A DNA stretch of 52,739 bases from a virus. The position numbers were made by a program, and so were the translations under genes. This document shows positions 2,507 to 31,922 of the stretch, piece by piece; within the stretch, counting starts at the first letter, position 1, and each line of letters starts with the position of its first letter. The DNA lies in the IMG/VR virus record IMGVR_UViG_3300030104_001024, positions 1 through 52,739 of that record; one strand, 5' to 3'. Under the pieces are notes generated by a model, which saw only the letters and a program-made list of their open reading frames with translations, did not search any database and had not been told where the DNA came from.

Positions 2507-4933
2507 TCATAAGGCTATTGCCATAGCTGTGGCAAAGCCCTTAGTTGCTTTTGCATCTAGCTGTGTCTGTATTGCTGATGTTACACCGTTTACATAACCT
2601 ATCTCTGTTGAGGTAGTTGTTGCTGCTGATACATCACCACTACCGTCAGATACTAATGCTCTTGATGCTGTTAAGTTTTCCATCTTGCTAAACTCTAGTG
2701 CTGCAGAAGCATTTACATCAGCATTTACTATAACACCACTGCCTATTGCAGCCGTTCCACTAGAGATGGTTATGTCACCACTTATACCACTTTCAATGTA
2801 CGTTGCCACTCTTGACATGGCAGACTTTCTGTTTGTGCCACCTGCACCGTTGTCAACAACTATTAGGTCAGCATCTACTAATGCTTCACCTATATCTGTA
2901 CCACCGTCTATCTCTAATGCACTCAGAGCTACTTTACCTGCTGTGCTTATAGTGGCAAGTTTAGTATCTGCTATAGCTGCACTAGACTTGATGTCTGCGT
3001 TTACAATATTTGTAATAGTGTTGTTGTCAGAATCTATTGACTTGTTTGTTAGTGTAGCAGTAGACGCTGTTGATACTAAGTCAACGTCACCACCTGTGCT
3101 TGGCAGTGTTAGTGTGTTAGATGCACTCTCTGAGTGTGGTGCAGCCTGTAGTGCTTGTGCGTGAGCATTGCCTGACTCACAGTAAAACTTTATCTGTGAC
3201 CTTGAACCTGAGTTCTTTAGGTCAATCAATCCTGACTCAACACCTACGTTACCATCAAGTAAAACCTGACCACTTCCCTTTGGTGTCAGCTTCAAGCTAA
3301 TATTTGTATCACCACCTGTTGCAGATATTTCAGGTGCGTTACCTGTTGCAGCATTTGTTACATCAATCTGATTGACAGCAGATGCTGTGGTCTGAAAGAT
3401 TATCTGCTCATTACCATTCTCGTCTGCAATAAAGTGAGCATCATCTATGAGTATGTTGTGACTGTTGGTGTCAAGGTTGCCACCTAACTGTGGAGATGTA
3501 TCTGCCACAACATCTGTGATACCACCAAGAGCAGAAGATATAGATGCAAGTGTTGTCTTTCTTAATGCACTAGCAGACGCATCATGTATAAGTATAACGT
3601 CATTAGATGTATCAAGAGATGTTTCAGCAGTTTGTCCTGTTATAACATTTGCATTTAGCATAGCAGTTTCAACAGCGTTGTTAGCAATTGTTACTGCACC
3701 ATTTGCTGCTATGGTTACGTCACCTGATACAGCTACAGGGTTGAAGTTAGTTCCGTCAGCAACCATAATGTGACCACTGGTGTTCGTACCCATAGTGAGA
3801 TCATCACCACTTATTGTCAAGTCACCTGCTATGGTTACAGCACCATCTGCTAGTGTAATTAAGTCTGTGTCATCTGTGTGACCAATGGTTGTTCCATTTA
3901 TTACAACGTCATCAATGTCTAGTGAGCCACCTGTAATAAGCCCTGTGGTTGTTATTGTAGATGAGCCTGTGTCTATTGTGCCAAAGCCAGAAGTAATGCT
4001 ACCACTATTTAATGCACCAACAGTTGTGGCTGCAGTGGTTACAAGGTTTGGCATTGCTGTTATTTCATCGTCAAAGTATGCAGCAAGGTCAGTTACAGCA
4101 ACCTGCTTCATTGTTCCTGCATCGTTAAACACAACTCTGTCTGCATCTGCAACTGTTGTAGAAGTAGCAGAAGTATCGCCATCCATTATGTTAAGCTCAG
4201 TGGCAGTAGCTGTAACACCGTCCAAGATATTAAGCTCTGCAGCTGTAGCAGATATTGCTGTACCGTTGAAGTCAATAGCGTCTAAGTAGGCAACACCATC
4301 TATGTATATATCTTTCCACTGCTTACTTGAAGAGCCAAGATCATGTGTGTCATCATCGTCAGGTATAATGTCAGAGTCTACTTCACCACCAAACACGATA
4401 TTGTCTGTGTTGGCATCTCCTAGTGTAAGTGTACCACCGTTGAATGTAGTTGTTCCTGTAACAGTAAGGTTGCCACCTATACCTAAGTTACCTGAAATGT
4501 CAGCGTTACCATTGATGTCTATGGTCGTTGCGGCTATCTGTACTTCTGTGTCAGCTACAATGTCTAGCTGTCCGTCTGTGCTAGAGTTAAGATATATAGC
4601 TGTGTCACGGAACTGTAGCTTCTCTGTAGACGCTACAAGTATGTCATCAGAGAACTCAAAGTAATCTTCATCTTCCATCCACTTGAGTACACCATCATTT
4701 GACTCACCATCAAAGGTTACAGTAATGTCTGTACCTGCAGTGCCATCCCCAAAGGTTAGAGATGTGCCAAGTAGTTTTGTGATAGGACCACCTTCGGCTG
4801 TAGTGCCGTCATGTGTGTGTCCTGTTGAGGCTGCAAAGGCGGCTAATAACTGATTAAACTCATCATTAGTATGGGCAGCCGTTATAACATCACCGTCACT
4901 ATACGTAGACTGTCTTGTGTATGTTGCTCCCAT
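2507..4933 (-). CDS. large repetitive tail fibre protein
   Basis: 808 residues. The N-terminus (MGATYTRQSTYSDGDVITAAHTNDEFNQLL, with a following GHTHDGTTAEGGPI) is the classic start of a marine phage fibre family. The body is a long series of beta-helix-like repeats rich in Thr, Gly, Asn and Asp: AELNILDGVTATATELNIMDG, GNADISGNLGIGGNLTVTG, and repeated TLADGAVTIAGDLTISG-type units. The C-terminal region has further Ser/Ala/Gly repeats and ends in a short helix (IQTQLDAKATKGFATAMA). It directly follows the nozzle-like gene at 4934-6466. The expected role is host recognition as a trimeric fibre on the virion. No endosialidase or depolymerase motif is visible. Confidence 0.8.
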   Translation of the reverse strand: MGATYTRQSTYSDGDVITAAHTNDEFNQLLAAFAASTGHTHDGTTAEGGPITKLLGTSLTFGDGTAGTDITVTFDGESNDGVLKWMEDEDYFEFSDDILVASTEKLQFRDTAIYLNSSTDGQLDIVADTEVQIAATTIDINGNADISGNLGIGGNLTVTGTTTFNGGTLTLGDANTDNIVFGGEVDSDIIPDDDDTHDLGSSSKQWKDIYIDGVAYLDAIDFNGTAISATAAELNILDGVTATATELNIMDGDTSATSTTVADADRVVFNDAGTMKQVAVTDLAAYFDDEITAMPNLVTTAATTVGALNSGSITSGFGTIDTGSSTITTTGLITGGSLDIDDVVINGTTIGHTDDTDLITLADGAVTIAGDLTISGDDLTMGTNTSGHIMVADGTNFNPVAVSGDVTIAANGAVTIANNAVETAMLNANVITGQTAETSLDTSNDVILIHDASASALRKTTLASISSALGGITDVVADTSPQLGGNLDTNSHNILIDDAHFIADENGNEQIIFQTTASAVNQIDVTNAATGNAPEISATGGDTNISLKLTPKGSGQVLLDGNVGVESGLIDLKNSGSRSQIKFYCESGNAHAQALQAAPHSESASNTLTLPSTGGDVDLVSTASTATLTNKSIDSDNNTITNIVNADIKSSAAIADTKLATISTAGKVALSALEIDGGTDIGEALVDADLIVVDNGAGGTNRKSAMSRVATYIESGISGDITISSGTAAIGSGVIVNADVNASAALEFSKMENLTASRALVSDGSGDVSAATTTSTEIGYVNGVTSAIQTQLDAKATKGFATAMAIAL

Positions 4934-19142: not shown

Positions 19143-19823
19143 TTACTTCTCCTTTTTAGCGTATAAGTTATCGAATACTCTCTGGGTGTCCCATACGTAT
19201 TCTGTCTCTTGTTTTGAATGGAACACCCTTTGGCTAGGCATAAAGTCTGGTGCTCCGTTCCCTGTCTCAAACCATGCAGGGTGTGTTACTCGTACTCTAT
19301 TATTAGGCAACGCTACTATGTTACCTGTATAATCTCCTGCTTCCATCAACTCTAACACATGACTTTGCTTGTGTTGAGCAGGGTCGTCAGCTATCTCACT
19401 GTCTGTATAGTCTACAGTGAAATAATACTTCGCAGGGTAGAACTCTCCATCTATCTTGGCTATCCAAGGAGCAGGAGTAGCTCTATTCAAAACGTAGACC
19501 GAATGCTCGTGAGACATACAGTCCCAAGGCTGTGCTACGTATGGTGGTAACTCTTTTGCCCATTTCTCGTAAGGTGTGTCACCAACCAATGCTGTAATGG
19601 GCATTCTCGCCCACATTGCTCCACCGTGTACATTTTCTTCTTCTGTATCGTCTGTCTCACATCCTGTAAATATTACTTGAAAGCTGAGACTTCGGTTCGG
19701 CATACTCGTCACGGCTATTACCATTGCATGAAGAAATTCTCCATGATACTGCGTAAAGTTGCAGGTGTATTCTCGTCTTACCCATGCCTTAAAGTATGGG
19801 ATGTTGCTCTGTAGAAATGCCAC
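19143..19823 (-). CDS. conserved marine phage protein of unknown function
   Basis: 226 residues, mixed alpha/beta. The start is GTG at 19823 with GAGG upstream, giving MAFLQSNIPYFKAWVRREYT, the usual start of this family. Other recognisable blocks are HGEFLHAMVIAVTSMPNRSL, GGAMWARMPITALVG and AQPWDCMSHEHSVYVLNR. It is widely distributed in marine myo-, sipho- and podoviruses, without an assigned activity. It overlaps the adenine methylase gene by 35 bases. I see no catalytic motif that would identify a reaction. Confidence 0.65.
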   Translation of the reverse strand: MAFLQSNIPYFKAWVRREYTCNFTQYHGEFLHAMVIAVTSMPNRSLSFQVIFTGCETDDTEEENVHGGAMWARMPITALVGDTPYEKWAKELPPYVAQPWDCMSHEHSVYVLNRATPAPWIAKIDGEFYPAKYYFTVDYTDSEIADDPAQHKQSHVLELMEAGDYTGNIVALPNNRVRVTHPAWFETGNGAPDFMPSQRVFHSKQETEYVWDTQRVFDNLYAKKEK

Positions 19824-20349
19824 TTAAACCTCGTTTATTACCAACTATTACTGTTTCCTGCGTGTTGTTCTTATCAAACAGATACCAACTGCAGTTGTCT
19901 TTTCCTGTCATCTTGCTATTAGGTATCCACTTTAGTCTGCCAACACTTACAATCTTCTTTAATCTACTTTGATAAGGTTGACTCTGCTTTGTGTGTATCC
20001 AATCTGCATCAAACAGTAACCACGTTGGAGCTAGATCACTTAGGTGTTCTATGATCTGATGTAGTAATTTTCGCTCCCAAGGTGGGTTGGTAATATAATA
20101 CTCTGGTTTTGAAAAAATGTCAAGTACATTTCTCTTTTCTACACTACTATCTTGCGGTTCTATGTCACTTTGTACCCAACAATCGCCATCTTTATACTTC
20201 ATTAGGAACATTACAAGTTGACCATTACCTGCACACGGCTCTATAAACGTAAATTTTTCTTCCAAGTGGGGTAGAAGTGGTAATATTCCCTCTTCTGGTG
20301 TTGGGTAGAAGTCCCTATCCCTTCTTTGGAACTCGCTTCTTTTTCCCAT
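19789..20349 (-). CDS. putative N6-adenine DNA methyltransferase
   Basis: 186 residues. SAM-binding motif I is FIEPCAGNGQL (35-45), the acidic partner SDIEPQD (61-67), catalytic motif IV NPPW (88-91), and FYPTPEE (14-20) is typical of the N-terminal motif X. The short length means there is little room for a target-recognition domain, as in minimal phage Dam-like enzymes. It lies in the late block, so it could protect packaged DNA or act on host DNA late in infection. The target site is unknown. The N-terminus overlaps a 37-residue ORF. Confidence 0.75.
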   Translation of the reverse strand: MGKRSEFQRRDRDFYPTPEEGILPLLPHLEEKFTFIEPCAGNGQLVMFLMKYKDGDCWVQSDIEPQDSSVEKRNVLDIFSKPEYYITNPPWERKLLHQIIEHLSDLAPTWLLFDADWIHTKQSQPYQSRLKKIVSVGRLKWIPNSKMTGKDNCSWYLFDKNNTQETVIVGNKRGLSGISTEQHPIL

Positions 20350-22907: not shown

Positions 22908-23166
22908 ATGAGCAGTAGCCTCTTGGTCTTTCAGGGTCTAAAACGTCATGCTTGTCGAGGTGTCCCTCTAAAAACAAGGCACGTTCTACGTGGTCTAGGG
23001 AGTAAAGGTTTCCAGTCTTTGCATAGATGGCTTGACGGATATAGAAGACATCTGATTTAGGAATATGAAGTCTTTGAGCCTTGTTTGGGTTATTTTCACT
23101 GATAGCTTCGTAGAACTCTTCGAGAACATTATCAGATGAATATAGTTTTACTTTATTTTTACTCAT
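22885..23166 (-). CDS. first gene of the leftward late block, conserved unknown
   Basis: 93 residues from the ATG at 23166 (MSKNKVKLYSSDNVLEEFYE). The TTG two codons earlier is not needed. It is mainly helical, with HIPKSDVFYIRQAIYAKTG and LDHVERALFLEGHL, and ends in ERPRGYCSYDTRDAR. This is a strongly conserved marine phage family without known function. It is the promoter-proximal gene of the late unit, about 130 bases downstream of the consensus promoter at 23302-23330. A regulatory function would fit the position but no DNA-binding motif is evident. Confidence 0.65.
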   Translation of the reverse strand: MSKNKVKLYSSDNVLEEFYEAISENNPNKAQRLHIPKSDVFYIRQAIYAKTGNLYSLDHVERALFLEGHLDKHDVLDPERPRGYCSYDTRDAR

Positions 23167-23281
23167 TGTCAATAGTTAATTTAGGTAGGAAGGGAATATT
23201 ATTATTATATATGGGGGAGTCTTAACATATTGTTATAACTATTATTATGTATATATTATATATGTTATAACTAGGTGTTTC

Positions 23282-23304
23282 AACTAAGAAGTCTTAACTT
23301 AGTT
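23282..23304. promoter_or_regulatory. inverted repeat over the late promoter (operator candidate)
   Basis: AACTAAG (23282-23288) and CTTAGTT (23298-23304) form a 7-base inverted repeat with a 9-base centre. It covers part of the -10 box and the expected transcription start of the leftward promoter, a typical place for a repressor or activator. A nearby direct repeat AGTCTTAAC occurs at 23218-23226 and 23290-23298. Confidence 0.45.
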
Positions 23305-23330
23305 ATACCATGTTTTTCACCTCCTGTCAA
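23302..23330 (-). promoter_or_regulatory. consensus sigma-70 promoter for the leftward late block
   Basis: Reading leftward there is TTGACA (23325-23330), exactly 17 bases, then TATAAC (23302-23307). This is a perfect -35, a 5/6 -10 and optimal spacing. It points at the gene starting at 23166, leaving a leader of roughly 130 AT-rich bases. Transcription by the host RNA polymerase is implied; no phage RNA polymerase gene is present in the window. Confidence 0.7.
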
Positions 23331-23643
23331 GTCAAAAAAACCACTTCTGTGTATTTGTACATATATACTAACTGGATATGGGGGGGTGTCCCACGCACTA
23401 TCACGCCCCGGAAAAAAGGGTGGGCAAAAATTACCAGAAAATGCGTGTGTATATTTTGGGAATAGTATTTTTAAAAAGCGGTAGGAATATAGGTATAAAT
23501 TATTGATTTATCTACCTTTATAAACTGATTAGTTATTAGTTGAGTCTGAAATATAACCATAAAAAGCGGTATCGTACCGACTCCAATGCAGACTCTAAAA
23601 ATATCTACAAAGGGACACTAGCGACTCCAAATATATCTATTAA
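23331..23643. other. intergenic control region, non-coding
   Basis: No gene is supported here. The region holds a run of seven G (23380-23386) and a GC-rich patch to about 23434 within AT-rich DNA. AAAAAGCGGTA occurs twice (23473-23483 and 23561-23571); the second copy runs into a perfect inverted repeat CGGTA-TCG-TACCG (23567-23579). Four GAGTC/GACTC sites lie at 23542-23627. A possible rightward -10 (TATAAC, 23552-23557) lacks a good -35. The early rightward promoter must lie here or in the repeat region but I cannot place it with confidence. Confidence 0.5.
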
Positions 23644-23773
23644 AAATAAATAGTCTTCATGCAGTCGAAATAAATAGTCTTCATGCAGTCGAAATAAATA
23701 GTCTTCATGCAGTCGAAATAAATAGTCTTCATGCAGTCGAAATAAATAGTCTTCATGCAGTCGAAATAAATAA
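23644..23773. repeat. five perfect 24-base tandem repeats (iteron-like)
   Basis: Five identical 24-base units begin at 23644, 23668, 23692, 23716 and 23740. Each starts AAATAAATAGTC and ends with CATGCAGTCG. A partial sixth unit (about 9 bases) reaches 23773, where an AT-rich stretch (AATTTATAAAAAACTAG) follows. No ORF crosses the array; each unit contains a stop in every useful frame. Perfect identity, position at the divergence point of the two gene blocks and the adjacent AT-rich DNA suggest protein-binding iterons of a replication origin or a control site. There are no spacers, so it is not CRISPR. Confidence 0.85.
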
Positions 23774-23875
23774 TTTATAAAAAACTAGACTTTATTGTTA
23801 ATTTTTGAGAGAATGGTTGAAACAAACCAGATTCTCCTATTTTTGGCGAATCACTAAATATAAGGAAACGTAAAA

Positions 23876-24313
23876 ATGAATATAACAACTACACAAATAA
23901 ACACCGCAATTTCTACCGCTACTATTAACGGAAATTTCAATTCAGATCTTATTGAGAATGTAAAACTTAAAAAATTAGCTATTCAAGAATACATAAACCG
24001 CATTGCGGAATCTGGTGAGTCTTCTGTTTTAAATGATTATCAAAAACCTATTGAATCCCAAACTGCGACTCCGCTTGACTCTTCTACTGTTATTATTGGA
24101 GGTAAAACCGCTTTGATTATTGAGAAAAGTCAAGATTACATTTTAGCAAAATTTGATAGTCCTACTTTTTCCGATAAGGCATATTTTACAATATCATATG
24201 TTGAGGGGAAATATATAGATGAAGAAAACAAAGGTATATCATTTTTTAGCGGTCATTACGATCTTGACCTAACAACCGCTATTAATGATTTTAATAAAAG
24301 AATTGGTAAGTAA
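23876..24313 (+). CDS. first rightward gene, unrecognised
   Basis: 145 residues. ATG at 23876 has AAGGA 8 bases upstream. The N-terminal half is helical and Thr/Asn-rich (MNITTTQINTAISTATING); the C-terminal half has beta-type segments (STVIIGGKTALIIEKSQDYI, KAYFTISYVEGKYID) and a final helix. I do not recognise the family. As the promoter-proximal gene of the early block, next to the iteron array, it is a candidate early regulator or host-takeover protein, but no DNA-binding motif is visible. The gene has several GAGTC/GACTC sites. Confidence 0.6.
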   Translation: MNITTTQINTAISTATINGNFNSDLIENVKLKKLAIQEYINRIAESGESSVLNDYQKPIESQTATPLDSSTVIIGGKTALIIEKSQDYILAKFDSPTFSDKAYFTISYVEGKYIDEENKGISFFSGHYDLDLTTAINDFNKRIGK

Positions 24314-24364
24314 AGATTATTCGAGTTTAACAAAAACCGCATATAAACCATATTGGAGGTAAAC

Positions 24365-24712
24365 ATGCAAAATTTAGACATAAACGCAATTCACAATAAA
24401 GAAGTTAAAAATCTTATTGAAGTAAGAAATAATACTTCAGATTTGGCAAAATTCATTTTTGATTTTTTAGAATTAAAAGGCATTGAACCATACAGAGTCC
24501 GCATTAATGACAAGACTCAAGAAGACTCTATTTACCTAACTTCTGGCGGTAAATCAAAGGAGGGATTTCTAGTTGTAAGAATTGGAAACCGAGTCAATTA
24601 CTACGCAAACTATTCCAGAAATGGCGGTACTAGAACTTATGATTATCTAGTACAGAAACAGCGCAAGTTGACGAATGGAAAGAGAATAACAACTGTTATC
24701 ACTCAACAATAA
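24365..24712 (+). CDS. early protein, unrecognised
   Basis: 115 residues from the ATG at 24365 (MQNLDINAIHNKEVKNLIEV), chosen because TTGGAGG lies 6 bases before it; the in-frame TTG four codons earlier is part of that site. It has a helical N-terminal half, then a beta-rich part (DSIYLTSGGKSKEGFLVVRI, GNRVNYYANYSRNGG) and a basic C-terminus. No family recognised. A strong hairpin follows the stop codon. Confidence 0.6.
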   Translation: MQNLDINAIHNKEVKNLIEVRNNTSDLAKFIFDFLELKGIEPYRVRINDKTQEDSIYLTSGGKSKEGFLVVRIGNRVNYYANYSRNGGTRTYDYLVQKQRKLTNGKRITTVITQQ

Positions 24713-24722
24713 ATTTAAACAA

Positions 24723-24751
24723 GCGGAGTCTGGTGCAATGCTAGACTCCGC
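24723..24751. promoter_or_regulatory. hairpin between early genes, GAGTC in both arms
   Basis: GCGGAGTCT (24723-24731) pairs with AGACTCCGC (24743-24751); two more pairs extend the stem and leave a 7-base loop. No U-run follows, so it is not a standard terminator; it lies 26 bases before the next ATG. Each arm carries a GAGTC/GACTC site, as does the terminator at 26050. RNA processing or protein binding are possible roles. Confidence 0.5.
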
Positions 24752-24777
24752 CAATAATAAAAAATGAGGAAACAAAA

Positions 24778-25026
24778 ATGTTAAATAAAAATATTTGTAA
24801 AACTTGTTATTCTTACAATCCAAGAATTAAGTTTATAACAGACTCAAGAAAAGTTTGTTTTTATAATGATGAATATAATATTGATTGTATGGTTGATTAT
24901 AAAAAATATGATTATCACGATATGACCAATAACAAAATAAAAGCTTATTGTTTAGACACTCAACAAAACATTATTATTAATGGCAGTTTGTTCAATGTCT
25001 CTGAAACTTGGAGGATTCAAAAATGA
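24778..25026 (+). CDS. small Cys-rich early protein, unrecognised
   Basis: 82 residues, very AT-rich coding. ATG at 24778 has GAGGA upstream. The N-terminus ICKTCYSYNPRIKF contains a CxxCY motif like the one in the Gp88-like protein three genes later (ICKNCYSF); further Cys at VCFYND, IDCMVDY and YCLDTQQ. A metal site is possible. The stop overlaps the next start (ATGA). Confidence 0.5.
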   Translation: MLNKNICKTCYSYNPRIKFITDSRKVCFYNDEYNIDCMVDYKKYDYHDMTNNKIKAYCLDTQQNIIINGSLFNVSETWRIQK

Positions 25027-25118
25027 TTATTGAAACAATAAAATGTATTATCTTTGTAGTTATACCTACTAGCATATTACTTTTAATACCAGAACAACCG
25101 CTATTAATTGGAGTTTAA
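25023..25118 (+). CDS. 31-residue membrane peptide
   Basis: Starts with ATG overlapping the previous stop (ATGA) and ends at 25118, four bases before the next ATG. The product MIIETIKCIIFVVIPTSILL continues with LIPEQPLLIGV: one hydrophobic segment. Its last codons hold the GGAG ribosome binding site of the next gene. Coupling and spacing support it; homology cannot be judged. Confidence 0.45.
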   Translation: MIIETIKCIIFVVIPTSILLLIPEQPLLIGV

Positions 25119-25121
25119 ACA

Positions 25122-25307
25122 ATGGAATATTTTTTTAATAACTTAGATTCTTATCTTTTAATTTATGCAACCATAATTACAGTAATGATTTTATTTATGA
25201 TTATATTTGTGATTGTTGATTATATTAAATTAATGACTCCATTTTGGGAAATAGAAAAAAGATATAAAAAAGAATTAGAACAACTTAGAAAAACAAGGAG
25301 TCTATAA
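25122..25307 (+). CDS. 61-residue single-pass membrane protein
   Basis: MEYFFNNLDSYLLIYATIIT is followed by a long hydrophobic stretch (VMILFMIIFVIVDYI) and a charged, basic C-terminal helix (EIEKRYKKELEQLRKTRSL) that should face the cytoplasm. GGAG lies 8 bases before ATG. The stop shares a base with the next start (TAATG), linking it to the Gp88-like gene. Unknown function; early membrane proteins can target host transport or exclude other phages, but there is no direct sign. Confidence 0.55.
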   Translation: MEYFFNNLDSYLLIYATIITVMILFMIIFVIVDYIKLMTPFWEIEKRYKKELEQLRKTRSL

Positions 25308-26029
25308 TGCCTTTAGATAATACAACATTAAATAATTTCTATATAAAACATAATGTAAATTTAGATTTTTATGAATGGTTAGAAAAAAAAGGTAGAAAGA
25401 TATTTGAGAAAATCGGATTCTTAAAGGTTCATATTTCAAAAGGTTCTGGCAAGCTATTAGATATAGATTCTATCTCAACTAATACTTTAACGAATGAATT
25501 TTGTAAAAAACAACATACCAAACAAACTGATACAATCTGTAAAAATTGTTATTCATTCGCTTTGTTGTTAGGTATGCGCAAAAATATGCAAGAATGTTTA
25601 GAAAGAAATTCGCAACTATTAAGCGAGTCATTACTACCAGAGTCAGTATTACCATTAATAATGCAAAAATATTTAAGAATTGCGAGTCATGGTGAAAATA
25701 TAAATATGACACACGTCATGAATATTTTTAATATTATACACAAGAATCCTACAACAATATTTGCTTATTGGACAAAAAGAACCGATTTAATAAATGAATA
25801 TTTTAGACATTTTGAAAAACCTAGTAATGTAATTATGGTTTATTCGAATCCTAAAAAGAATCATATATTGAAAAAGATTCCGAAAAACTTTAACAAGGTT
25901 TTTAATAACGTACATAAAGACAAGTTTATTGAACAACAAAACTGTACAGGTCAAAAATGTAGAGATTGTTTAGCTTGTTATAATTTTAATACAGAGAATA
26001 TTATAGTTGAAAAGGTCAAAAATTATTAA
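25307..26029 (+). CDS. Gp88-like protein (Cys-rich phage/plasmid family)
   Basis: 240 residues. The pattern matches the Gp88 group first named from mycobacteriophage: SISTNTLTNEFCKKQ, then TICKNCYSFALLLGM (C78, C81, CxxCY) with a following E..RN, a central LRIASHGENINMTHVMNIFN and HKNPTTIFAYWTKR, and a C-terminal Cys cluster CTGQKCRDCLACY (C213, C218, C221, C224). The Cys set suggests a metal or Fe-S site. No biochemical role is known to me for the family. It ends 20 bases before a clear terminator, closing the first early operon. Coding is strongly AT-rich with many GAGTC sites. Confidence 0.6.
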   Translation: MPLDNTTLNNFYIKHNVNLDFYEWLEKKGRKIFEKIGFLKVHISKGSGKLLDIDSISTNTLTNEFCKKQHTKQTDTICKNCYSFALLLGMRKNMQECLERNSQLLSESLLPESVLPLIMQKYLRIASHGENINMTHVMNIFNIIHKNPTTIFAYWTKRTDLINEYFRHFEKPSNVIMVYSNPKKNHILKKIPKNFNKVFNNVHKDKFIEQQNCTGQKCRDCLACYNFNTENIIVEKVKNY

Positions 26030-26049
26030 GAGTCGTTTCCTCCAAACTA

Positions 26050-26087
26050 GGCGAGTCGATAACCACCAAGACTCGCCACTTTTTTTC
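26050..26087 (+). terminator. rho-independent terminator after the first early operon
   Basis: GGCGAGTC (26050-26057) and GACTCGCC (26070-26077) form a perfect 8-base stem with a 12-base loop, followed by AC and eight T (26080-26087). It ends transcription after the Gp88-like gene. Both stem arms contain a GAGTC/GACTC site. Confidence 0.8.
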
Positions 26088-26108
26088 TTCTGAAAAAATT
26101 TGAGAGGT

Positions 26109-26205
26109 TTACTATCATCATGGATAGGGTAGGGTGCGACTTGGAAAGTTTGATAAAAACAAAAATTATGGCAAATTACTATCATAAGATAGGGTAGGGT
26201 AGGGT
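26109..26205. repeat. two copies of a TTACTATCAT...GATAGGGTAGGG element
   Basis: TTACTATCAT occurs at 26109-26118 and 26176-26185, each followed within a few bases by GATAGGGTAGGG (26123-26134 and 26188-26199). CTATC and GATAG in each copy can pair as a small hairpin. The second copy has one extra GGGTA. The pair lies between the terminator and the second early operon, an expected place for regulator binding. Confidence 0.6.
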
Positions 26206-26219
26206 TCGAGAAATAAAAC

Positions 26220-26249
26220 TTGACCGAATCATTTAAAGTAGAGTAAAAC
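26220..26249 (+). promoter_or_regulatory. possible promoter of the second early operon
   Basis: TTGACC (26220-26225), an 18-base spacer and TAAAAC (26244-26249). The -35 is 5/6 and the -10 only 4/6. It lies just after a terminator and 35 bases before the next ATG, where a promoter is needed. The repeated GATAGGGTAGGG elements lie directly upstream and could bind an activator. Confidence 0.35.
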
Positions 26250-26283
26250 TAATTATAGATAATTTATTATAGGAGCAAAACAA

Positions 26284-26664
26284 ATGCTAGACAGACCAGA
26301 AATAAAAAACATGAGAAAAGAACTTGAACAACTACTAAACAAGTATAGTTCTGAAATAACCAAGTATGACATAGAATTGATGCAGGGTGGTTCATTCACA
26401 GAAACAGAAATGACCTTTAAGTTAGCTATGCGGTTAAAGGGTGGTGAAAGTCAATTACAAGTTGACCTAATACGTTTCTCGGCTCTTGACAATGTAGACA
26501 CCACCAAGATTGCAGACATACGAGGTACTAAATATAGTCTTGTAGGGTATAAAAGATCAGCTAGAGTTAGACCATACATTGCACAAAATTTACAAGACAA
26601 CAAACATTATGTATTTACCGAAGAACAAGCTAAAGAGCATTTTGGCAAGGGAGAGGTAGCATAA
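26284..26664 (+). CDS. conserved early protein, unknown
   Basis: 126 residues. ATG at 26284 with AGGAG 9 bases upstream. The N-terminal helix (EIKNMRKELEQLLNKYSSEI) leads into alternating strands (YDIELMQGGSFTETEMTFKL, RLKGGESQLQVDLIRF) and ends in HYVFTEEQAKEHFGKGEV. The pattern looks like a family in marine phages' early regions. No activity is known. Stop and next start overlap (TAATG). Confidence 0.55.
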   Translation: MLDRPEIKNMRKELEQLLNKYSSEITKYDIELMQGGSFTETEMTFKLAMRLKGGESQLQVDLIRFSALDNVDTTKIADIRGTKYSLVGYKRSARVRPYIAQNLQDNKHYVFTEEQAKEHFGKGEVA

Positions 26665-26798
26665 TGGAATGGAAATATATAGTTTGGGTAGGTGGTGTAG
26701 ATGATTATTACACTACCTATGAGAGGGCAAAAGAGCATTATGACGAATGGATTGAACAAGGTTATGATGACGTAATTTTAGAGGAGATAACACAATGA
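26664..26798 (+). CDS. 44-residue acidic/aromatic early protein
   Basis: ATG at 26664 overlaps the previous stop; the frame ends with TGA overlapping the next ATG (ATGA). The product begins MEWKYIVWVGGVDDYYTTYE and continues as an amphipathic helix with many Asp/Glu (HYDEWIEQGYDDVILEEI). It is a common kind of short early phage protein. Coupling on both sides supports expression. Unknown role. Confidence 0.55.
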   Translation: MEWKYIVWVGGVDDYYTTYERAKEHYDEWIEQGYDDVILEEITQ

Positions 26799-27166
26799 GA
26801 GCAATACTTATAGACCCAAAGCATAAACAGATAATGCAAATAGACTACAATGGAGATTATAAGACTATCTATGAGCACCTAAGTTTTACCAATTCGCTTG
26901 GCAATTCACATAAAATACGAGCCTTTGACATTGTGCGAATACCTGTAGGTAATGATGGCATATATGTAGATGACGAGGGATTGTATGCACCAAATGAGGA
27001 CAAGCATTGGTTTACCTACCGCTACAATGCCCATGAGATGCACCAGAATATACCGCTAGTAAACAGAGGTTTAATTATTGGTTGTGATGATAATGGAGAT
27101 AGTGTAGACTGTGATTCGACAGTTGATTCGATTAAATCGCAGATAACATGGGGATTAGTGAGATGA
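26795..27166 (+). CDS. early protein resembling DUF3846-type proteins
   Basis: 123 residues. MRAILIDPKHKQIMQIDYNG with the following DYKTIYEHL, then a VDDEGLYAPNEDKHW region and LVNRGLIIGCDDNGDSVD, is the layout of small DUF3846-like proteins found in phages and plasmids (IDDEGL...., G.G.I.G.D..G). The name is my best match by memory and not certain. It overlaps both neighbours by 4 bases. Confidence 0.5.
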   Translation: MRAILIDPKHKQIMQIDYNGDYKTIYEHLSFTNSLGNSHKIRAFDIVRIPVGNDGIYVDDEGLYAPNEDKHWFTYRYNAHEMHQNIPLVNRGLIIGCDDNGDSVDCDSTVDSIKSQITWGLVR

Positions 27167-27681
27167 ATAGATTTATTATAGATTATGATGTCGTCAGCAT
27201 TGCACAATCATTATGTGACCAACATATTGTAAAGATGCCATTGGAAGAATCGCAGATGTTATGTACTGCTTTATGGCATCACGCACCAGACTACGCAGAG
27301 GAGAATAATCTATATAAACCTGTTCATCAAAAACACCCTTGTACACTATGGGCTATGCACAGTAGAGATAACTATGAGTTTGCTTGGAATTTATACTTTG
27401 CCATGTGTCAAGAGTATAGATTAAGATATAATAGATTTCATGGTTGTGGTAAGCATGAAGATGCACTAAGACCAAGTAGAGTAAAACATTTTTTACCAGA
27501 TTTGGGATTAACAAAACACCCACAATGCTTTAGCGGACATGATGATCTAAAGACAGATGAATTTATGCCAGTAAATGCCTATCGTAAGTTTTATTATGTA
27601 GACAAAATGCGATTCGCTAGGTATAACAAATGTAGACATATGCCACATTGGTTAAATGAAATGAGGGTTGATTATGCCTAA
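27163..27681 (+). CDS. conserved phage protein (LCDQHIVKM...ESQML family), possibly pyrimidine-dimer glycosylase-like
   Basis: 172 residues from the ATG at 27163 (MNRFIIDYDVVSIAQSLCDQ), which overlaps the previous stop (ATGA); an ATG five codons upstream is less suited. The blocks IAQSLCDQHIVKMPLEESQM, HQKHPCTLWAMHSRDNYEFA and YRLRYNRFHGC are typical of a family in marine phages and bacteria with conserved His, Lys, Glu, Cys and Trp. Some members are annotated as pyrimidine dimer DNA glycosylases, but the similarity to T4 endonuclease V is not visible here, so I give only a tentative link to DNA repair. Confidence 0.55.
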   Translation: MNRFIIDYDVVSIAQSLCDQHIVKMPLEESQMLCTALWHHAPDYAEENNLYKPVHQKHPCTLWAMHSRDNYEFAWNLYFAMCQEYRLRYNRFHGCGKHEDALRPSRVKHFLPDLGLTKHPQCFSGHDDLKTDEFMPVNAYRKFYYVDKMRFARYNKCRHMPHWLNEMRVDYA

Positions 27682-27865
27682 AACATATTATAAAAAAGTA
27701 AAGACTCCAAAGCCTAGAAATCCAGAGTTTATTCGTAAGAGTACACAAATCATAGAGGACAAGCGACACAAGGAGCAACAACGTAGACACGAGAAGAGAG
27801 AGCTTGACCTAAAGAGGTGGAGAGCAGAATATGAAAAATCAAAAGGAGTTAAAGATAATGAGTAA
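27674..27865 (+). CDS. 63-residue highly charged early protein
   Basis: Starts with ATG at 27674 (MPKTYYKKVKTPKPRNPEFI), inside the last codons of the previous gene. The rest is a long charged helix with Lys, Arg, Glu and Gln (HKEQQRRHEKRELDLKRWRA). No family recognised. It overlaps the next gene by 8 bases. The same-strand run of coupled genes is the main evidence. Confidence 0.5.
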   Translation: MPKTYYKKVKTPKPRNPEFIRKSTQIIEDKRHKEQQRRHEKRELDLKRWRAEYEKSKGVKDNE

Positions 27866-28028
27866 AACAATAGCAAGTGCTGAACACACAGAAAAGGTAA
27901 ACGATTTAACTATAAGTGATATACTTCAGATGAATAACGAAAACATAATACCTACTGACATTGTAGATAAATTGTATTATCATTTGTTGGATAGCAACAA
28001 AGTAAGAGAGGAGTTGAAAGATGAATAA
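27858..28028 (+). CDS. 56-residue early protein, unknown
   Basis: ATG at 27858 (MSKTIASAEHTEKVNDLTIS) has AAAAGGAG upstream, which rules in favour of this start over one nine codons earlier. Helical, acidic C-terminus (HLLDSNKVREELKDE). Overlaps both neighbours. Unknown. Confidence 0.5.
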   Translation: MSKTIASAEHTEKVNDLTISDILQMNNENIIPTDIVDKLYYHLLDSNKVREELKDE

Positions 28029-28158
28029 GGAAGATAAAATAAAATTTATAATTGAGTGTGAAAAGAACGCAGTTCCACCAAATAGTTGGGAATGGATTCA
28101 ATTAGCAGATGACAAAACTATTAATGAGTTATACGATTATTGGACACAAGAACTGTAG
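28021..28158 (+). CDS. 45-residue early protein, unknown
   Basis: ATG at 28021 lies in the last codons of the previous gene with GGAGTTGAAAG before it. The product begins MNKEDKIKFIIECEKNAVPP and ends in LADDKTINELYDYWTQEL, helical and acidic. Its coupling to the previous gene and repeated GAGGAGTTGAAAG leader (also before the next gene) support it. No function known. Confidence 0.5.
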   Translation: MNKEDKIKFIIECEKNAVPPNSWEWIQLADDKTINELYDYWTQEL

Positions 28159-28171
28159 AGGAGTTGAAAGA

Positions 28172-28351
28172 ATGACATATATACTAGCACAGTTAAACTT
28201 TGTAAAAGTAGATGACGAGGGTAATGAAGAAACAGATAGCAAGGGTAACGTAATAACTTATGTTCCAAAAGGTAGGTGGAAAGAGTTAGAATACCTTTGT
28301 GAAGATAGAAATGATGATGACTTTGAAGTGGAGAAAACAGATGAAAGCTAG
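28172..28351 (+). CDS. 59-residue acidic early protein, unknown
   Basis: The start chosen is ATG at 28172 (MTYILAQLNFVKVDDEGNEE), preceded by AGGAGTTGAAAGA; the longer frame upstream overlaps another gene. A small beta hairpin (ILAQLNFVKVDDEG...VITYVPKGRW) and an acidic tail (DRNDDDFEVEKTDES). Overlaps the next gene. Unknown. Confidence 0.5.
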   Translation: MTYILAQLNFVKVDDEGNEETDSKGNVITYVPKGRWKELEYLCEDRNDDDFEVEKTDES

Positions 28352-28535
28352 AGAATTAATAGAAAAGATTATGAAGTTAGATGACCTTAATACAGAGATA
28401 GATTTTAGGAAGTTTTTTAGTGATGGAGAAGATAAAGATTTACTTTTAGATTTCTGTCATATATTCTATCCAGATGCAGAGGATAAAGATAACGATAGAT
28501 TTATAATAGGTTTCAAGGAGAGAACAGATGTATAA
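28341..28535 (+). CDS. 64-residue acidic early protein, unknown
   Basis: ATG at 28341 (MKARELIEKIMKLDDLNTEI) has GTGGAG 7 bases upstream; starts further up lie in the previous gene. Helical then aromatic/acidic (LLLDFCHIFYPDAEDKDNDR). Overlaps the methyltransferase start by 8 bases, so expression of the two is coupled. No recognised family. Confidence 0.5.
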   Translation: MKARELIEKIMKLDDLNTEIDFRKFFSDGEDKDLLLDFCHIFYPDAEDKDNDRFIIGFKERTDV

Positions 28536-29562
28536 AACAGTAGCAAGTTTCTTTGATGGGTTTTCTGGTACAATGCTTTCACTAGACAAGCTAGGTATCA
28601 CACCAGAAGAATACCATGCCTTTGAAATTGACCCTTATTCAAGTGCAGTTAGTCGCTACAACTATCCTAACATTATTCGTCATGGTGATGCACGAAATTG
28701 GGAAGTGTTAAAGGGTAAGAAGATTGACCTCTTGGTTGCAGGATTTCCATGCCAAAGCTACTCAGTTGCAGGGTTGCAGAAGTTTCAACAAGACCCAAGA
28801 GATATGTCAAAGGTATTACTTGATGCTCTCAAAGGTTTAGACGTAGATAAGGTTCTTATTGAAAATGTTGCATCTATGCCAAGGGTTTGGAAAGATTATT
28901 TTACTGAGATGTTTCAACGTATATTTCCAGACGTACTATGCCACGAGGTAAACAGTTCAGTAGTGTCTGCTCAATCTCGTAAGCGATTATATTGGACAAA
29001 CATTGACTTTGACTTAATGTCAGATAAGGGAATAGTAATGAATGATATCCTTGAAGATGGTGCAATCGCAGACAGAGATAAATCCTATTGCCTAGATGCT
29101 AATTACTTCAAGGGCGGTAGCATGAAGATGTACTACGAGAAAGCTAGGAGACAGATAGTATATGATGATAAAGGTAAGGTTGGTTGTAAACAAGTAGGTG
29201 AGGCAGACATCAAAGGCTATGACATTATTCGCAGAGTTTATAGCAGATATGGTAAAGCACCATCACTTACAACCATGCAAGGAGGTCACAGAGAACCAAA
29301 GGTTGAGTGTCGTAATTGGGAGAATATAAATCCAGAGGAGTTTTTCTGGAGAGCATTAACACCTCTTGAATGTGAGAGGTTGCAAACTGTTCCAGATGGG
29401 TACACTCAATATGGTGACATGGGTGGCGAGCAGTTTGATAAAGATGGTAACTTTATTCGTTACACAACAAAGCCAATTAGTAATTCACAGAGATATAAGA
29501 TGCTTGGTAATGGTTTCACAGTTGATGTTATATCTCACATATTAAAAGGAGTAGAGGAATGA
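28528..29562 (+). CDS. C5-cytosine DNA methyltransferase
   Basis: 344 residues with the full C5 motif set: motif I FFDGFSGTM (8-16), motif IV GFPCQSYS with catalytic C75, motif VI ENV (112-114), motif VIII QSRKRLYW (149-156), and motif X LGNGFTVDVISHIL near the C-terminus. The segment between VIII and IX (about 165-290) is the target-recognition region; the sequence does not tell the site. No cognate restriction nuclease is beside it, so it is an orphan methylase, probably protecting phage DNA from host restriction or altering host gene expression. It lies in the early block with acidic small genes on both sides. Confidence 0.9.
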   Translation: MYKTVASFFDGFSGTMLSLDKLGITPEEYHAFEIDPYSSAVSRYNYPNIIRHGDARNWEVLKGKKIDLLVAGFPCQSYSVAGLQKFQQDPRDMSKVLLDALKGLDVDKVLIENVASMPRVWKDYFTEMFQRIFPDVLCHEVNSSVVSAQSRKRLYWTNIDFDLMSDKGIVMNDILEDGAIADRDKSYCLDANYFKGGSMKMYYEKARRQIVYDDKGKVGCKQVGEADIKGYDIIRRVYSRYGKAPSLTTMQGGHREPKVECRNWENINPEEFFWRALTPLECERLQTVPDGYTQYGDMGGEQFDKDGNFIRYTTKPISNSQRYKMLGNGFTVDVISHILKGVEE

Positions 29563-29795
29563 AGATAACTATTGAACCAAAAGACAGAGTAGACTTACTA
29601 AAATATGTTAACGTATTGAGAGAGTTTAACTGTAACACATCAGAGAAAATACCTATCTACTATGAACACATTTGTGAGATAGAGACTCTTATGTATAGAC
29701 TAGCAAACCTACTACAGTTTGAACAACCTCACAAGGGTGGGTGGTACAGTGACTACCAATTAAAAGAACATTTACCAAAGGAGAAACAAGAATGA
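29559..29795 (+). CDS. 78-residue early protein, unknown
   Basis: ATG overlaps the methyltransferase stop (ATGA). The product MKITIEPKDRVDLLKYVNVL continues with a helical core (YYEHICEIETLMYRLANLLQ) and HKGGWYSDYQLKEHLP. No family recognised. Its own stop overlaps the next start in the same way, so the three genes form a tight run. Confidence 0.5.
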   Translation: MKITIEPKDRVDLLKYVNVLREFNCNTSEKIPIYYEHICEIETLMYRLANLLQFEQPHKGGWYSDYQLKEHLPKEKQE

Positions 29796-29995
29796 CTAAA
29801 GTATACGCAGTGATGTTTGAACCCTTTGAGATTGATGGGTTAGAGTACGTCAAAGAGGGGGGAAAAACTTGGACAGAGCATAGTCCTATTAAGACATTTA
29901 ACACTATGGAACAGGCACAGATAGAGGCTAGTAAGTGGAACACAGGTCAAGTGGTTCTCTATGAAGAACACGAACCAGATTTTATAATGGAGTAA
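29792..29995 (+). CDS. 67-residue early protein, unknown
   Basis: ATG overlaps the previous stop. The product (MTKVYAVMFEPFEIDGLEYV) has an alternating beta start and a helical NTMEQAQIEASKWNT segment; the pattern resembles short phage proteins with a strand-strand-helix-strand layout. Unknown. Confidence 0.5.
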   Translation: MTKVYAVMFEPFEIDGLEYVKEGGKTWTEHSPIKTFNTMEQAQIEASKWNTGQVVLYEEHEPDFIME

Positions 29996-29999
29996 TGAT

Positions 30000-30098
30000 A
30001 TGAATGAGGGACAAAGTTTATTTCTAATGATGGCTATACTTATAGTTGGAACATTATTACTCAATGCGTGTTCTGGTTTCTTTATGAGGATATCGTGA
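30000..30098 (+). CDS. 32-residue membrane peptide, lipobox-like
   Basis: ATG at 30000; the product is MNEGQSLFLMMAILIVGTLL followed by LNACSGFFMRIS. There is one hydrophobic segment ending in LNAC, which could be a lipoprotein cleavage site, but the sequence is so short that it may just be a membrane peptide. Its stop overlaps the next ATG (TGATG). Confidence 0.4.
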   Translation: MNEGQSLFLMMAILIVGTLLLNACSGFFMRIS

Positions 30099-30220
30099 TG
30101 GGCGATTTAGAGGACATTGAAACAATACTAGACGACTACTTTGATGAAATGGTTGATGATTCTGAATTGGATAAAATCAAATCATTACCTACAAAGATTA
30201 AAAAGGAGTTAGAGGAATGA
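30098..30220 (+). CDS. 40-residue acidic peptide
   Basis: ATG at 30098 overlaps the previous stop; the frame ends with TGA overlapping the SleB-like start. Very acidic (LEDIETILDDYFDEMVDDSE), then a basic helix (KIKSLPTKIKKELEE). Stop-start coupling on both sides is the support. Unknown role. Confidence 0.45.
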   Translation: MGDLEDIETILDDYFDEMVDDSELDKIKSLPTKIKKELEE

Positions 30221-30645
30221 TATTAGAAACCGCACTTATGTGTATGGCAGTCAATATTTACCACGAGGCTAACAACCAATCTATGTTAGGACAGATAGCA
30301 GTTGGTCAAGTAGTGATGAATAGAGTAGAGGACAAGCGATTTCCTAGTACAGTTTGTGAAGTAGTAAAACAAGCGGTGACGTACAAGGGTACAAACAAAC
30401 CAGTTTTACACAAATGCCAATTTTCATGGTATTGTGATGGTGCAAAAGATGATGTGAACAAGAATAGCAAATCGTGGTCAAAAGCATTAGAGTATGCCTC
30501 TATTGTTCTAAGCGGTAGAATTGTTCTGGACATTACAGATGGTGCTACACATTATCACGCAACGTATGTAAGACCTGCGTGGAGAAAAACTAAGACTCGC
30601 ACAACAAGAATTGACCGCCACATATTTTATAGGTGGGAGAAGTGA
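30217..30645 (+). CDS. cell-wall hydrolase, SleB type
   Basis: 142 residues. The domain covers the whole protein: CMAVNIYHEANNQSMLGQIA with the expected catalytic Glu (E17), VGQVVMNRVEDKRFPSTVCE, CQFSWYCDG and GATHYHATYVRPAW. This is the SleB/Hydrolase_2 fold, a peptidoglycan lytic enzyme. The N-terminus is slightly hydrophobic (MILETALMCMAV) but has no clear signal peptide. It is encoded in the early block, away from the late lysis cluster, so it may serve cell-wall remodelling during infection or an accessory lysis function. Confidence 0.8.
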   Translation: MILETALMCMAVNIYHEANNQSMLGQIAVGQVVMNRVEDKRFPSTVCEVVKQAVTYKGTNKPVLHKCQFSWYCDGAKDDVNKNSKSWSKALEYASIVLSGRIVLDITDGATHYHATYVRPAWRKTKTRTTRIDRHIFYRWEK

Positions 30646-30725
30646 GAAACAAGGGATTCTGGTTATTCATTGGTCTGGTTACATTATGTTATTTACTAGA
30701 CTTAATATTTAATACTTTACTTTAA
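30642..30725 (+). CDS. 27-residue membrane peptide
   Basis: GTG at 30642 overlaps the SleB stop (GTGA) with GGGAGA just upstream. The product is a basic start (MRNKGFW) followed by one hydrophobic segment (LFIGLVTLCYLLDLIFNTLL). Position next to the hydrolase suggests it might assist export of the enzyme, but that is only context. Confidence 0.4.
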   Translation: MRNKGFWLFIGLVTLCYLLDLIFNTLL

Positions 30726-30734
30726 GGAGAAGTT

Positions 30735-30812
30735 ATGAAATTATTTAAATTATTTGTTCTTGATTTATTAGCAGTAATATTTATGGTATGGGTATGTATT
30801 CATGTATTTTAA
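30735..30812 (+). CDS. 25-residue membrane peptide
   Basis: ATG at 30735 with AAGGAG 8 bases upstream, a good ribosome binding site for so short a frame. The product MKLFKLFVLDLLAVIFMVWV plus five residues is one hydrophobic segment. It follows another membrane peptide. Function unknown. Confidence 0.4.
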   Translation: MKLFKLFVLDLLAVIFMVWVCIHVF

Positions 30813-30848
30813 ATATAGAAAATATCTTTTAAGATTATTAATCCAAGT

Positions 30849-30885
30849 GAGTTGCCTCCTAAATGTTATGTTGGGAGGTAAACTC
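30849..30885. repeat. long imperfect inverted repeat upstream of the integrase
   Basis: GAGTT (30849-30853) and CCTCCTAA (30855-30862) pair with TTGGGAGG (30871-30878) and AACTC (30881-30885). This is a 13-pair stem with a small internal loop and one G-T pair, around an 8-base loop. No U-run follows. It lies in the only notable gap upstream of the integrase and is a candidate attachment or integrase/excisionase binding site, or an mRNA control structure. Confidence 0.5.
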
Positions 30886-30910
30886 AACCAATCCTTTTCC
30901 GCAAGGAACT

Positions 30911-31060
30911 ATGGTTGGCAAATTAGTAGTAAACGCAATGTTGTTAGAACTATTGACTTTGTTTTTGGTAAAACACATTGCCAGAAAGCGTGGGAGAAAT
31001 GGGTATCAAACCAAAAGAAATAAAAACAATAGGACAAATGGTGGAATATTACCTCCATAG
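30911..31060 (+). CDS. 49-residue membrane protein overlapping the integrase start
   Basis: ATG at 30911 with AAGGA upstream. The product MVGKLVVNAMLLELLTLFLV continues KHIARKRGRNGYQ and a basic Asn/Lys tail. One membrane segment, then a positively charged cytoplasmic tail. The frame overlaps the integrase N-terminus by 62 bases. The hydrophobic/basic pattern and ribosome site argue for a real gene. Unknown function. Confidence 0.4.
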   Translation: MVGKLVVNAMLLELLTLFLVKHIARKRGRNGYQTKRNKNNRTNGGILPP

Positions 31061-31922
31061 CCCTCAATTTTTGGCTCTCAGACCTCGTTCACAGAAGGAT
31101 TACGAGTATGTGCTCAACAGAGCCTTACAGACCCCTGTTAGCGTTTCTAAAGCGTTTGAGAGCATACGGATAGCAAAGGTATCGGTGAGTGATTGTAAGA
31201 TTGTTTATCAGTCTTGGCTACAAAAGGGTAAACGTATGGCAAACAACACCGCTACTGTCTTGTCTGTGGTGTTTAACATGGCAGAGGAGCTTGAACTTCT
31301 GGCAAGTAACCCTATGAGGCGAGTAAAAAAGGCAAAACAAGAGGTGCGGAGGGTAATGTGGTCACGAGATCAAGTAAAATTATTCCTTGACACCGCATAT
31401 AGTCAGTACAAGTGGCGAAGTATTGGGTTAATTGTCCACATGGCATACGAATTTGCTCAAAGAGTAGGCGATATGCGACTACTTGAGTGGAAATGTATTG
31501 ATTTTGACACAAAAAGACTTGACTTGGTGCAGTCAAAACGTAGGGCAGAGGTGCATATACCTATTAATGCTAGTCTATTGGCTATGTTGCTAGAACAACA
31601 CAACGATTTTGGGTTTCAAGAGTACGTTGTTCCAAATGTTAGACCTATAAATGGTAGCTACAGACCCTACAATGAGTTTGAGGTGTCCATTTTAGTCAAT
31701 GAAGTCAAGACAGAGGCAGGTTTACCTAAAGAATTAACTGCTATGGACATGAGAAGAACCGCTATTACGGAAATGGTGGAGGCAGGAGTAGATACTACGC
31801 AGATTATGGCGGTATCTGGTCACAATTCGCCTCAATCAATGCGACCATACATCAAACATACGTTTAAATCAGCAAATAATGCACTTGCAAGGAGGGATTC
31901 ATACAAAAATGAAGTTTCTTGA
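30999..31922 (+). CDS. int: tyrosine recombinase / integrase
   Basis: 307 residues from the ATG at 30999 (MGIKPKEIKTIGQMVEYYLH), chosen because GGGAGA precedes it; the TTG seven codons earlier is unlikely. The N-terminal SAM-like core-binding domain covers about 10-110. The catalytic domain has R155 (YEFAQRVGDMRLLEW), K180 (VQSKRRAEV), then MDMRRTAITEM with R252, where the usual His of HxxR is Met249. It continues with SGHNSP (H275) and nucleophile Y284 (MRPYIKH). The gene overlaps the primase by 14 bases. HMO-2011-type phages carry an integrase at this place. It may support lysogeny, but no repressor is recognised in the window. Confidence 0.85.
   Translation: MGIKPKEIKTIGQMVEYYLHSPQFLALRPRSQKDYEYVLNRALQTPVSVSKAFESIRIAKVSVSDCKIVYQSWLQKGKRMANNTATVLSVVFNMAEELELLASNPMRRVKKAKQEVRRVMWSRDQVKLFLDTAYSQYKWRSIGLIVHMAYEFAQRVGDMRLLEWKCIDFDTKRLDLVQSKRRAEVHIPINASLLAMLLEQHNDFGFQEYVVPNVRPINGSYRPYNEFEVSILVNEVKTEAGLPKELTAMDMRRTAITEMVEAGVDTTQIMAVSGHNSPQSMRPYIKHTFKSANNALARRDSYKNEVS

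Follow-up and report, generated by a model that had tools for sequence, protein, structure and literature searches.

A tandem array of five identical 24-bp repeats in the divergence region of an HMO-2011-type phage, a candidate site for an early regulator

The DNA analysed, called the window throughout, is a 52,739-bp IMG/VR virus record. Its polymerase shows 59–62% amino-acid identity to those of the Roseobacter phages CRP-603, CRP-2, CRP-207 and CRP-345 and to that of HMO-2011, and the HMO-2011 gene order holds: primase, DnaB-like helicase, integrase, Cas4-like exonuclease and ribonucleotide reductase. The phage is therefore of the HMO-2011 type, as had been proposed in a preliminary description made from the sequence alone; polymerase, helicase and primase are related to those of the group and in matching order. 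A near search among named phages gave no match.

A gap of about 700 bp separates a leftward gene (ATG at 23166) from a rightward gene starting at 23876. Five identical copies of AAATAAATAGTCTTCATGCAGTCG stand in tandem in this gap at 23644–23763 (plus strand) and are followed by an incomplete sixth copy of 9 nt, AAATAAATA, at 23764–23772. Tandem Repeats Finder gave the whole array (23644–23772) a score of 258, with period 24, 5.4 copies and 100% matches, which confirmed the five identical repeats and partial sixth of the preliminary description. When all periods from 10 to 79 were scanned, this was the sole perfect tandem array with at least three copies in the window. The core, AGTCTTCATGCAGTCG, has five exact occurrences; shuffled sequences gave 0.4 matches at up to three mismatches and never reached seven. 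The array is noncoding and AT-rich DNA flanks it on both sides, so its description as noncoding direct repeats at the divergence point beside AT-rich DNA also stands. No palindromy was detected in the unit, single-strand folding of the array gave no structure (z +1.5) and the 24-bp period does not correspond to an integral number of helical turns. Elsewhere in the window, a 36-bp unit (1.9 copies at 97%, Tandem Repeats Finder) was seen inside a leftward gene at 50373–50442.

The leftward promoter expected on the far side of the array is present on the minus strand at 23302–23330, as TTGACA (23330–23325) and TATAAC (23307–23302) separated by 17 bp. Its hexamers and spacing are identical in the relatives L031, L032, L033, L035, L036 and L038–L040, and a similar form occurs in CRP-603, CRP-2 and HMO-2011. 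The leader of the leftward operon (23224–23310) contains a second promoter-like match found by consensus scan, TTGAAA-17-TATAAT (23283–23255, minus strand), and, from repeat and motif scans, AGTT(A)TAACT-like elements (repeats D6 and D9), which were noted over 23172–23310. Across the family this motif has 204 occurrences, more than expected by chance, at 7.7 per kb in the first 340 bp versus 0.2 per kb in the rest, a ratio of about 35 that is inflated because the motif was picked after viewing these regions, related sequences also being counted repeatedly. Between this leader and the array lies a segment conserved in L031 (23541–23640), in which repeat searches and alignment located GAGTC/GACTC elements (GACTCTAAAAATATCTA, GACTCCAAATATATCTA). 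Degenerate copies of the array unit upstream, on either strand, were sought and rejected, local alignments scoring as shuffled sequences did (p 0.19–0.43); AGTCTGCATTGGAGTCGG, inverted at 23577–23594, looks plausible by eye as such a copy and its alignment score is no better than those of shuffles.

On the other side of the array, a weak candidate early rightward promoter, TAGACT-17-GAGAAT (23786–23814, plus strand; 4/6 and 4/6 consensus matches), was picked out by eye. It starts 14 bp downstream of the array and was not reported by the consensus promoter scan; near the matching position L033 has TTGAGT-18-TATAAT. A small hairpin, GATTC..GAATC (23830–23852, plus strand), lies 5′ of the ribosome-binding site of the first early gene and is similar in L031 and L004 (the same contig as L033). 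No credible match to a tRNA or known RNA was found near the array, tRNA fragments being looked for across 23100–31100. The first early gene (23876–24313, plus strand), which had been named as the closest candidate reader of the array, encodes 145 amino acids. Profile searches and comparison point to a two-part protein, L123 having the first half joined to another second half and L120 and L122 having the second half in different settings; the searches gave no family match and no recognisable DNA-binding family. The second early gene (24365–24712, plus strand, 115 amino acids) likewise gave no family match and has homologues only in the GANTC-rich relatives described below. Structure models of the two products were of low confidence (mean pLDDT 48 and 57, respectively).

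With the conserved first leftward gene as bait, 80 homologous regions were obtained. A 24-bp array of the window's kind was absent from all named relatives compared; because the records of most of these begin at the first early gene, their divergence region falls at the record end. The nearest relative, L031, is a 56-kb genome; over 38 kb its nucleotides are 83% identical to those of the window, and its polymerase is 97% identical. In the IMG/VR contigs L031, L032 and L033 the first early gene is common and the gap can be aligned on both sides of the array, yet the array itself is absent despite the kept flanks and genes. L031 aligns closely to about 23640 and resumes at about 23768; between these points it has an AT-rich stretch that is roughly as long as one unit, shares little with it apart from an AGTC and may represent the single-copy ancestor of the array. 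A scan with the shared promoter pattern and two protein-profile scans revealed no further carrier. Searches for the unit gave only one chance 17-mer match, within a coding gene, in other IMG/VR contigs and no match in the GTDB genomes searched. The comparison of the same region in HMO-2011-type genomes, which had been suggested as a check on the array, thus found it in no close relative.

The absence of any difference in 120 bp puts the divergence between copies at no more than about 2.5%, against about 19–25% between the flanks of the window and L031, which argues that the amplification took place after the split from L031. This would hold unless homogenisation keeps the copies identical. That the array is missing from the closest relatives also points to recent amplification and not to a group-wide replication origin. 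Judged by these comparisons, the array appears to have arisen recently, by tandem amplification specific to this lineage, in a control region that changes fast. The full identity of the copies had been taken as a sign of a functional site; it reflects recent origin and is no proof of constraint.

The observation of repeats in this region extends to many relatives, which have short repeated sites there too. Repeated 9-mers exceeded Markov simulations in 11 of 49 nonredundant regions. The palindrome TGTGATCACA occurs four times in the divergence region of CRP-603 (L019:4104–4222) and nowhere in its other 50 kb; two or three copies are found in CRP-345, CRP-1, L061, L092, L100, L103 and others, and it is also present in L109. 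These sets of two to four copies are spaced 31–75 bp apart upstream of early genes. A tie between TGTGATCACA and one shared early protein was looked for and gave no significant association. Across 429 kb of related loci the interrupted palindrome GTTACN4GTAAC occurs seven times, always in the divergence region of L036–L040 (one or two copies each, about 50 bp apart). In L044 a 21-bp tandem repeat near the early genes, at about positions 620–671 of the region to the right of the first leftward gene, contains two perfect DnaA boxes (TTATCCACA); the DnaA-box scan found such a pair only there and none in the window's intergenic region. In L123, a cluster of the GTCAAAAAATTGACA palindrome was seen 3′ of the second early gene (3352–3424), near the end of the sequence stretch. 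The window thus resembles CRP-603, CRP-2, CRP-345 and HMO-2011 in gene order, divergence region and type of leftward promoter, but differs in its 24-bp array, which none of them has, several bearing copies of TGTGATCACA instead. By position, the array seems to occupy the same kind of place as the clade-specific sites of these relatives, upstream of the weak candidate promoter.

The GANTC content (a CcrM-type target) of the early module is a more general and stranger observation than the array. The module at 23500–26250 of the window has 36 sites in 3.3 kb against 8.2 expected from an order-1 Markov model, the figure elsewhere in the genome being about 1.6 per kb. GAGTC/GACTC is the most enriched 5-mer in the module (22 versus 1.7), and there is no GANTC site inside the array itself. 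About eight relatives (L031, L032, L033 and L036–L040) have a similarly saturated module, with 25–33 sites in 3.3 kb where 7–9 are expected. In most relatives the module is nearly GANTC-free, the matching region containing no site or one in L035, L043, L044, L081, L091, L101, L103, L106, CRP-603 and CRP-2. Among the sixteen patterns of this type, none came near GANTC in spread; as a family-wide intergenic signature GANTC was rejected, being enriched in one clade only. In L035, where the module has no GANTC site, the first long early gene (1140–2162) is ArdC-like (ArdcN and MPTase-PolyVal). The window itself has a short DNA-methyltransferase-like gene (19792–20349; phrog_799, a partial profile match) and a C5-cytosine methyltransferase gene (28528–29559). 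Close to the end of the GANTC-rich stretch, a hairpin GGCGAGTC..GACTCGCC followed by a T run (26050–26090) resembles a terminator at the end of the first early genes. Excerpts of published work describe a SAR11 prophage and about half of pelagiphages as depleted of GANTC (PMC9516812) and alphaproteobacterial phages as encoding GANTC methylases (PMC5537653); the excerpts on GANTC in such phages contained no description of saturation limited to one module.

Our tentative preference is to read the array as a candidate multiplied binding site for a regulator of the early operon. A 24-bp segment would have been amplified recently in the control region between the leftward late and rightward early blocks, giving several copies of a binding site for a DNA-binding protein of the phage or its host. 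The bound protein would then repress or activate early transcription at the rightward promoter immediately downstream of the array. The array is perfect and unique in the window, and relatives bear other clade-specific repeated sites in the same region. It is like the operator clusters of temperate phages in that repeated sites lie at the early/late divergence of an integrase-bearing phage whose relatives have clade-specific sites. Against this, the unit is non-palindromic, unlike the usual form of such operators and the sites of other clades, the period is off helical turns, the right-hand promoter is weak and was missed by the scan, and no repressor was found when the whole genome was searched with the HTH_3 profile. 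A neutral expansion would be just as likely to give an array known from a single record, and replication slippage is a close rival of a regulator site, a replication origin being less likely. Expansion by slippage of a functionless 24-bp segment in AT-rich noncoding DNA, somewhat more doubtful than a regulator site, fits an array that is young by its perfect identity and missing from three close relatives; tandem units of 13–61 bp in two or three copies recur in the intergenic region of relatives, with a different sequence each time. Five copies at 100% are nevertheless an outlier, units of at least 20 bp in relatives reaching no more than about three copies at lower identity, and the window has no other perfect array of three or more copies, while this one stands directly upstream of the early genes. 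A wider version of the regulator reading, which we regard as unlikely, would make the array a control site gained recently in a 'binding-site hub' of rapid turnover at the head of the early module, where each clade has its own repeated site and reader, and where module-wide gain or purging of GANTC marks adaptation to host methylation. An artefact of metagenome assembly is very improbable. The array is known from one metagenomic record, with no second contig over the locus; the flanks, however, align cleanly to L031 and 129 bp fits inside ordinary reads. Short-read assemblers usually collapse perfect repeats and do not expand them, which also counts against an artefact.

Phage lambda O sites and P1 RepA iterons are iteron-type origins with tandem direct repeats, and the preliminary description had suggested that the array might be a replication origin, at which a phage initiator would bind the five repeats and open the adjoining AT-rich stretch. 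The array has the form of such a site, with direct, non-palindromic repeats within the usual range of about 17–24 bp, noncoding, beside AT-rich DNA and at the divergence point; lambda O sites, P1 RepA iterons (PMC7157519) and iteron plasmids likewise combine AT-rich noncoding DNA with adjoining tandem direct repeats of about 20 bp. Polymerase, primase and DnaB-like helicase are present and, as had been stated, are not accompanied by a recognised initiator, and the homologous region of L044 contains the paired DnaA boxes. The array differs from known iteron origins in its period of 24, in having no recognised linked initiator and in not being conserved beside near-identical replication proteins, since L031 (polymerase 97%), L032 and L033 do not have it. 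Moreover, the first early genes match no initiator family and the window's intergenic region has no DnaA boxes. Cumulative GC skew makes one turn at the divergence and another near 42.3 kb, where the blocks converge, coinciding with the switch in gene orientation. At fourfold-degenerate sites of the coding strand the skew is near zero in every block (−0.06 and −0.10, and +0.05 in the far part, for the leftward block; −0.07 and −0.02 for the rightward block) and the turn is lost. It is therefore set by positions fixed by amino acids and follows gene direction, a coding-strand effect that is uninformative on replication. Skew and conservation had both been named beforehand as checks on an origin and neither came out in its favour; the skew result and the absence of the array despite near-identical replication proteins therefore make an origin the less likely reading, and we consider it improbable. 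A partition centromere, integrase arm sites (attP) or a CRISPR-like array is very improbable. Direct repeats can occur in partition loci and attP regions and a tyrosine integrase is encoded at 30978, but a search of the genome found no ParA-type ATPase, no spacers separate the copies, and no tRNA-derived core lies beside the site, 23100–31100 holding no tRNA fragment and the integrase gene being 7 kb away. Phage CRP-3 integrates at tRNA-Met (PMC6918029).

Phages of the HMO-2011 type abound in the ocean, and no description of their early-transcription control or replication start was found in the literature examined. Taken alone, the array probably represents something young and local. The comparison that it prompted maps a conserved leftward promoter, family-wide operator-like elements and clade-specific clusters of sites, and these are concrete places in which to seek the missing regulators.
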